From positions 1-46,501 of the forward strand of contig JAQWBI010000014.1 in NCBI GenBank assembly GCA_028706475.1: DNA of 46,501 nucleotides, written 5' to 3'. The DNA comes from Candidatus Cloacimonadota bacterium (GTDB taxonomy: Bacteria; Cloacimonadota; Cloacimonadia; Cloacimonadales; Cloacimonadaceae). The notes under the pieces are model-generated. The model was not told where the DNA came from. It did not search any database and saw nothing but the letters and a program-made list of their open reading frames with translations. Shown here one piece after another: positions 123 through 1,071 of the stretch (the first letter of the stretch is position 1; each line of letters starts with the position of its first letter). A program made the position numbers and the translations under genes.

Positions 123-154
123 AAAAAGCAAGAGCCTTACGGCTCTTGCTTTTT
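123..154. terminator. Bidirectional intrinsic terminator
   Basis: A perfect 14-bp inverted repeat (AAAAAGCAAGAGCC / GGCTCTTGCTTTTT) with a 4-base loop. It has a T-run on both strands, so it can end transcription of the minus-strand pilin-like gene and of any plus-strand gene entering from the left. Confidence 0.85.
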
Positions 155-206: not shown

Positions 207-695
207 CTACTCATCTGAAGCCACGGCCTCATCTGAAGCCTCGGCTGTGATTTCACAAGCTGGGAATGTTATAGTAGTAACTATCTTAGGACTTTTGCCA
301 TCTCTTTCTTCTGTGCCTATGCCAGTTATTCCTACAGTCTCATCTGCACCTGCTGTTGCACTAGGAGTTACGGATGTAATAGTGTAGATTCCATTGTCAT
401 TTTTGATACCATATTCATCTGCATCCCAGTCTGCTCCTGCAGATCCCGCCATAAATCCAATGAAACCAGCCACATCCGCTGCATCAAGACCGGTCAGATC
501 GCCACCAGCACCACCTTGTGATTTTGGGGTTTTGTAAAATTGCACAATTTGTGAAGCAAAGCTTTGAGCATCTGCTGCAATAGCTGATTTGTTGGCACTG
601 TAGGCCTGGCTGTTGAACATCTGGATACCAACCGCGATGGCGGCACCAACGATGATTACACTAAGTACGATTAAAAGAATTTGTTGAGTTCCCAT
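207..695 (-). CDS. Pilin-like single-helix secreted or surface protein
   Basis: A 162-residue protein starting MGTQQILLIVLSVIIVG. One hydrophobic helix spans about residues 6-26, followed by a soluble domain. It resembles a poorly characterised group of pilin-like proteins in Cloacimonadota and related phyla that share the short MG-QQ-LLIVLGVIIVG N-terminus and a Tyr-x-x-Pro plus Gly-rich stretch, here FYKTPKSQGGAGG at about residues 53-65. Unlike classical type IV prepilins there is no basic leader and no Glu at mature position 5. If cleavage happens, it would follow Gly2. The last 12 residues (AEASDEAVASDE) are acidic and encoded by two near-identical 12-base units. An AGGAGA ribosome site sits 7 bases before the ATG, a sigma-54 promoter lies upstream and a terminator downstream, so it is a monocistronic unit. 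An assembly role in a filament is inference. Confidence 0.75.
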   Translation of the reverse strand: MGTQQILLIVLSVIIVGAAIAVGIQMFNSQAYSANKSAIAADAQSFASQIVQFYKTPKSQGGAGGDLTGLDAADVAGFIGFMAGSAGADWDADEYGIKNDNGIYTITSVTPSATAGADETVGITGIGTEERDGKSPKIVTTITFPACEITAEASDEAVASDE

Positions 696-1071
696 GTGTA
701 TTCTCCTTTTTTTGGGGGTTTACTCTTATATGTTTTGTGCCTAAGGCACAGCTATGTACAATGCAAGAGTCGTGCCAATTCTCTGATTTGGCTTCAATAC
801 TTACTCTCCTGTTGTGTATTTCATTGTATTATTATCACTTACGGCATGCGCTGGAGACTCGAAGGGGAGGATTTTGCATAGCTTTCATTGTGAGGATTGT
901 TTCTTTTACGATACACTCATTAATTGCCTTCTGTCTCCCATAGGGGACATTTTAATCAGATTACTTGTGTCACATGATATCGCTGAATTGATGAATTCAA
1001 TAACATCCATGAAATCCTTCGGAGTATGGAGTACATACCATAAGTAAATCACATCTATGCGGATACACAAA
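696..1071. other. Intergenic region between pilin-like gene and tRNA-Phe
   Basis: No convincing gene. It contains the pilin-like gene's leader and sigma-54 promoter (761-778). Short open frames here on both strands lack ribosome sites and family resemblance. The tRNA-proximal half shows a small hairpin (GGTATGTACTCCATACT on the minus strand) without a T-run. Confidence 0.6.
761..778 (-). promoter_or_regulatory. Sigma-54 (RpoN) promoter of the pilin-like gene
   Basis: On the minus strand the sequence is TTGGCACGACTCTTGCAT. It matches the sigma-54 consensus TGGCACG-N4-TTGCA at every conserved position, with exactly ten bases between the -24 GG and the -12 GC. The -12 element is 68 bases upstream of the start codon. 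By analogy with PilR-controlled pilA genes, an enhancer-binding activator would be needed. None is encoded in this window. Confidence 0.85.

Follow-up and report, generated by a model that had tools for sequence, protein, structure and literature searches.

A conserved, probably RpoN-dependent promoter ahead of a leaderless pilin-like gene in a Cloacimonadota bacterium

Background

In Geobacter sulfurreducens the pilin gene pilA lies directly downstream of pilR and has an RpoN promoter, in which TTGGCACGGTTTTTGCT represents the Geobacter form of the published sigma-54 consensus mrNrYTGGCACG-N4-TTGCWNNw (PMC2725144). In Pseudomonas and Acinetobacter, too, the pilin gene pilA is subject to sigma-54-dependent regulation by a two-component system, PilSR (PMC8088505). 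Cloacimonadota are a large uncultured phylum which is important in anaerobic digestion. According to excerpts of one study, most Cloacimonadota from digesters possess type IV pilus genes, pilus-related genes are expressed, and the type IV pili of the phylum are invoked for electron transfer to methanogens in a passage which does not name the pilin (PMC13082233).

Here we analyse a stretch of 46,501 nucleotides from a Candidatus Cloacimonadota bacterium (contig JAQWBI010000014.1 of assembly GCA_028706475.1), referred to as the window. As judged from sequence comparisons, an element in this window very probably serves as a sigma-54 promoter for a gene that encodes a type IV pilin-like subunit, and would be driven by an activator which acts from an upstream activating site (UAS). 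The features are collected in Table 1.

Table 1. Features of the pilin-like locus in the window
Feature	Position	Strand	Remarks
Sigma-54 -24/-12 promoter	761..778	minus	TTGGCACGACTCTTGCAT; GG 776-775, GC 764-763; conserved in homologues
Probable enhancer (UAS), palindrome TGTCCCCTATGGGAGACA	932..949		171 bases upstream of the -24 element
Leaderless pilin-like gene (MGTQQ family)	207..695	minus	ORF; 162 aa, MGTQQILLIVLSVIIVG...
Shine-Dalgarno AAGGAGA	702..708	minus	direct read; 6-7 bases before ATG
Intrinsic terminator	123..154	minus	14-bp stem, loop GTAA, U-run; fold -23.7 kcal/mol

Comparing this locus with Geobacter pilR-pilA reveals the same promoter element, a type IV pilin-like subunit and, in Cloacimonadota relatives, an activator gene adjoining the pilin gene. 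In contrast, the Geobacter protein is a classical prepilin with a leader and Glu5, both of which are missing from the MGTQQ protein, and in the host genome the activator gene is unlinked. The PilSR-pilA systems share the two-component mode of control but differ in that the cognate activator of the MGTQQ gene is deduced from gene neighbourhood. By analogy, the regulation scheme is the known one of RpoN/PilR-controlled pilA systems, and the MGTQQ subunit is predicted from sequence and model to function as type IV pilins do, with its gene under control of the RpoN/PilR-like kind.

Results and Discussion

A pilin-like protein without a leader

Homologues of the window gene are found in 83 of 118 Cloacimonadota genomes, and 84 homologous genes were gathered from 60 stretches of DNA of this phylum. 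Scans of the 162-aa protein against Pfam and NCBIfam gave no match; in particular, it does not match PF07963 (N_methyl) and has Gln5 in place of Glu5. The AlphaFold (AF2) model (pLDDT 92) consists of an N-terminal helix of 54 residues (2-55) and a beta sheet, that is, the long helix and beta-sheet head of type IV pilins. Among solved structures VIA ranks pilins first, with full-length PAK pilin as the best match (Z 7.5 over 119 residues, rmsd 3.2), a score under the Z 8 caution line of the tool. Foldseek found nothing significant in the PDB, with pilins appearing only at E 0.85 or worse, and geopilins lead the sequence-profile matches to PDB entries (E 0.011-0.12). Profile-profile comparison of the MGTQQ family with the classical pilins of the phylum yielded no meaningful alignment. 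Although fold and profile matches are each modest alone, they agree with the gene linkage described below in pointing to a pilin-like subunit. An e-pilin was also considered and dropped due to the low content of aromatic residues (F6 W1 Y4 in 162 aa).

Classical pilins of the phylum start with about ten leader residues rich in basic ones, followed by GFTLIE. The host's own N_methyl pilin on contig C8 (G000:C8, L027:1016-1453) is of this kind, having the ten-residue leader MLRNLKNQKG and then FTLIE. MGTQQ proteins differ from this: instead of a class III leader ending in Gly, Met-Gly alone stands directly before the hydrophobic stretch. Because two defining features, the leader and Glu5, fail, we do not file the MGTQQ protein as a canonical pilin.

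Three pilin-like proteins encoded in the pilB operon of the pilus cluster (see below) are likewise leaderless. One of them, pl141, starts with MNMMEMVLALFAVVFF or similar in most orthologues (MNMMEMV, in which Glu is residue 5 before any processing, just the position it has in mature pilins), and in five genes a stop codon directly precedes its ATG. The pl141 family could not be aligned with the MGTQQ family by profile-profile comparison. The model of pl141 matches best the GspI minor pseudopilins of type II secretion (VIA Z 8-9); this likeness in predicted fold concerns pl141 and not the window gene, and pl141 differs from GspI in being made without a leader. Both models, of MGTQQ and of pl141, deviate from the ideal structural register by about three residues, so the position that corresponds exactly to mature residue 1 is uncertain.

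One could argue that the promoter is real and its product nevertheless a canonical pilin, with a leader of just two residues cut off between MG and TQQ by the single prepilin peptidase of the host genome. Gly2 is nearly invariant in the family, and Gly precedes the cut in classical prepilins. The peptidase is present, and other relatives, several f12 genomes among them, have kept a peptidase while an N_methyl pilin was not detected in them. However, a leader of this sort would have no basic residues and would be far from the length usual in the phylum. A longer one is hard to accommodate, as an alternative in-frame start codon is lacking in 77 of the 84 genes, and 77 of 84 have a well-placed Shine-Dalgarno sequence. 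The start of the neighbouring pl141 with its unprocessed Glu5 also speaks against a two-residue leader, as do three relatives (91-95% complete) which carry the MGTQQ gene and in which neither a peptidase nor a listed classical pilin could be detected. We therefore consider the two-residue leader doubtful, though it deserves to be taken seriously.

The host peptidase may have the classical pilins on C8 as its substrates, and a bypass of prepilin peptidase by the MGTQQ protein is possible. The absence of the enzyme from three genomes is no proof of such a bypass, because the genomes are incomplete and because the peptidase persists in relatives where no classical pilin was detected. We tentatively propose, and give slightly less than even weight to, a type IV-like filament built from pilins that are translated in their mature form (MGTQQ as major subunit together with three minor families), in which the peptidase would be bypassed and RpoN, together with a PilR-like activator, would act as the switch of the major subunit. 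If leader cleavage is indeed unneeded here, a step held universal in the type IV filament superfamily would be dispensable. A literature search on leaderless pilins, MGTQQ and RpoN in Cloacimonadota returned nothing relevant.

Linkage to the pilus machine

The gene pilC (T2SSF) follows within 1.5 kb downstream and on the same strand for 47 of the 84 members, 37 of which also have the sigma-54 site described in the next section. Counted by locus, pilC comes after a member in 40 of 60 loci, usually adjoined by pilB. In the host genome this linkage to PilB and PilC is found for a paralogue on contig C19 only. This paralogue adjoins, in divergent orientation, pilC, pilB, genes for three proteins with hydrophobic N-termini and a response regulator gene; the cluster also encodes a second T2SSE ATPase, PilN/PilO-like proteins and a secretin. 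Among its products (L099:1655-17120) are a hybrid CHASE4/PAS histidine kinase and a response regulator carrying a cyclic-nucleotide-binding domain. The suggestion of the sequence-only reading that the family is a regulated extracellular filament or surface component gains support from the linkage to pilC and pilB, from the minor-pilin, secretin and ATPase genes of the C19 cluster and from the predicted pilin fold.

The same machinery might instead build a type II secretion pseudopilus, i.e. a piston in the cell envelope and not a surface pilus. This would be in line with the GspI-like prediction for pl141 and with the secretin, but GspI-like minor pilins occur in type IV pili as well. The second T2SSE ATPase is smaller and PilT-like, the subunit itself matches PAK pilin best, and up to 15 copies per genome fit a variable surface subunit better. 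A pseudopilus is thus unlikely in our view, and a type IV pilin-like subunit is the reading we follow.

As a separate observation, the 15 MGTQQ copies of one genome (L120, G115:C134:8000-23000) are in many cases arranged in tandem arrays. Several of them carry a sigma-54 site together with the TGTC-N10-GACA palindrome, and variation of the subunit is possible.

The promoter and its conservation

The sequence-only reading had described a minus-strand site that fits the RpoN consensus with GG-N10-GC spacing, located 68 bases ahead of the start of a pilin-like gene bounded by a terminator. Direct inspection bears out all of this; the palindrome further upstream and the missing leader were not part of that reading. 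The minus-strand letters are T778 T777 G776 G775 C774 A773 C772 G771, then ACTC, then T766 T765 G764 C763 A762 T761, and the spacing from GG to GC is exactly 10 bases, as in the form TTGGCACR-N4-TTGCW. From the C of GC to the A of the ATG (695) there are 68 bases, and the hairpin with its U-run closes the gene. The pattern TGGCACG-N4-TTGCW has a single exact match in the window. The 17-base pattern TTGGCAYR-N4-TTGCW has two exact matches in the 2.06-Mb genome, the window site being one of them, versus 0 for the reversed pattern. The other (L002:1501-1517, G000:C5:39872) probably precedes a gene for a secreted protein (MKKLFMLTLLVLLTALPLLAQ...) for which the long ORF places the start too far upstream. 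With two mismatches allowed, 241 matches are found genome-wide as against 121 for the reversed pattern; since such matches are common, agreement with the consensus is by itself weak evidence.

We therefore scored the 200 bases before each start of the 84 homologues with a hand-weighted sigma-54 matrix, taking a score of at least 10 as a site. Such a site is found on the coding strand upstream of 55 of the 84 genes, compared with 1 of 84 on the opposite strand and a rate of 1.4% in shuffles. Genes that bear the promoter occur in 24 of the 28 genera, although these counts are not independent because the homologues share descent. Among the matched sites the two Gs at -24 and the G at -12 never vary, while most flanking columns stay below 0.5 bit; this invariance is in part a product of the score-based selection, an effect from which the strand and shuffle controls are free. 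The promoter is missing in 29 of 84 members, including the pilC-linked copy of the host's own genome. A chance match, with transcription of the gene coming from an undetected sigma-70 promoter or from the tRNA-Phe gene (1147-1072) that runs in the same direction, is very improbable, as no sigma-70-like site lies on the gene's strand within 1-1200 and the site is conserved in spacing and strand across the genera while its flanks are not. All these comparisons argue for a genuine RpoN (sigma-54) promoter that has been conserved in evolution.

The same promoter was found ahead of a paralogue in the host genome on contig C84, as would be expected from the earlier reading. Allowing at most one mismatch, there are 22 sites in the genome, most of them inside long ORFs. 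The clear intergenic sites with a gene start behind them include those of the window gene, the C84 paralogue and the classical pilin on C8. As such sites lie mainly before pilin genes, pilins seem to be a main target of RpoN in this organism. The classical pilin on C8 (L027:1016-1517) has its strong sigma-54 site 47 bases before the ATG and a PilT-like gene behind it, which points to a further, canonical type IV system that RpoN apparently controls as well.

The copy on C19 has no promoter; the window and C84 copies have one and are not seen beside pilC. From this distribution the promoter appears to drive pilin, pilC and pilB together in most relatives, and stand-alone subunits in the species of the window.

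RpoN, the candidate activator and its site

The host genome encodes RpoN (G000:C1:17762-19180, E 5e-103), as do 112 of the 118 sampled Cloacimonadota genomes. PilR-type activators, whose presence would be expected under the proposed control, were found as well, and five proteins of the host contain a full sigma-54 interaction domain. At many loci from other families of the phylum the end of an NtrC/PilR-type gene (Response_reg and Sigma54_activat) lies some 0.3-0.7 kb ahead of a pilin gene with the same orientation (e.g. L105, L106, L110, L111, L115, L119, L126, L130, L131). Three of four neighbouring activators checked against Pfam have the Fis-type HTH_8, so that receiver, AAA+ domain, Fis-type HTH and pilin-adjacent position come together in these families. 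The orthologue in the host genome sits on another contig: compared with host proteins other than the activator L013, the neighbouring activators were every time closest to L014 (G000:C7:32328-32828), with 42-56% identity. This makes the L014 orthologue our best candidate for the activator of the window promoter. Its contact loop reads GAFTDA and not the canonical GAFTGA. Within the presumed pilin activator clade the loop varies (GAFTDA, GSFTDA, GSFTSA, GAFTGA), and the sigma-54 contact of this clade is therefore not the textbook one.

The activator would probably bind the palindrome at 932-949. Its form TGTCYCCNNNNGGRGACA has a single exact copy in the genome, and the C84 paralogue has TGTTTTCTAAAGGGGACA at equal distance. 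Words resembling TGTCA and TGACA are over-represented upstream of the -24 element. Of 51 promoter regions left after deduplication, 27 contain the 18-bp pattern TGTC-N10-GACA with no more than one mismatch, compared with a shuffle mean of 4.1 (max 9), while other half-site spacings are found in 4 to 14 regions and promoter-less genes have the pattern in 4 of 29 cases. A leave-one-out motif model recovers the palindrome in 36 of the 51 regions, in most cases 106 to 187 bases upstream of -24; roughly one promoter in four has a weak UAS or none at all. Scanning the whole genome at three mismatches gave no enrichment (172 vs 164), hence the palindrome is informative only together with the promoter. 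The case for an upstream activator site is a statistical one, and on this basis we consider the palindrome a probable enhancer, to which L014 may bind.

Taken together, RNA polymerase with RpoN would rest as a closed complex at -24/-12. A phosphorylated NtrC/PilR-type activator, for which the L014 orthologue is the candidate, would bind TGTC-N10-GACA about 170 bases upstream, loop over and open the promoter with ATP. Transcription would then run from near 751 to the hairpin, and the product would be exported and inserted via its N-terminal hydrophobic helix, and finally polymerised into a filament by the PilC/PilB/PilMNO/PilT/secretin machine of C19. An unannotated family present in about 70% of the sampled genomes would thereby gain a name and a regulon, as well as a regulator that can be tested.
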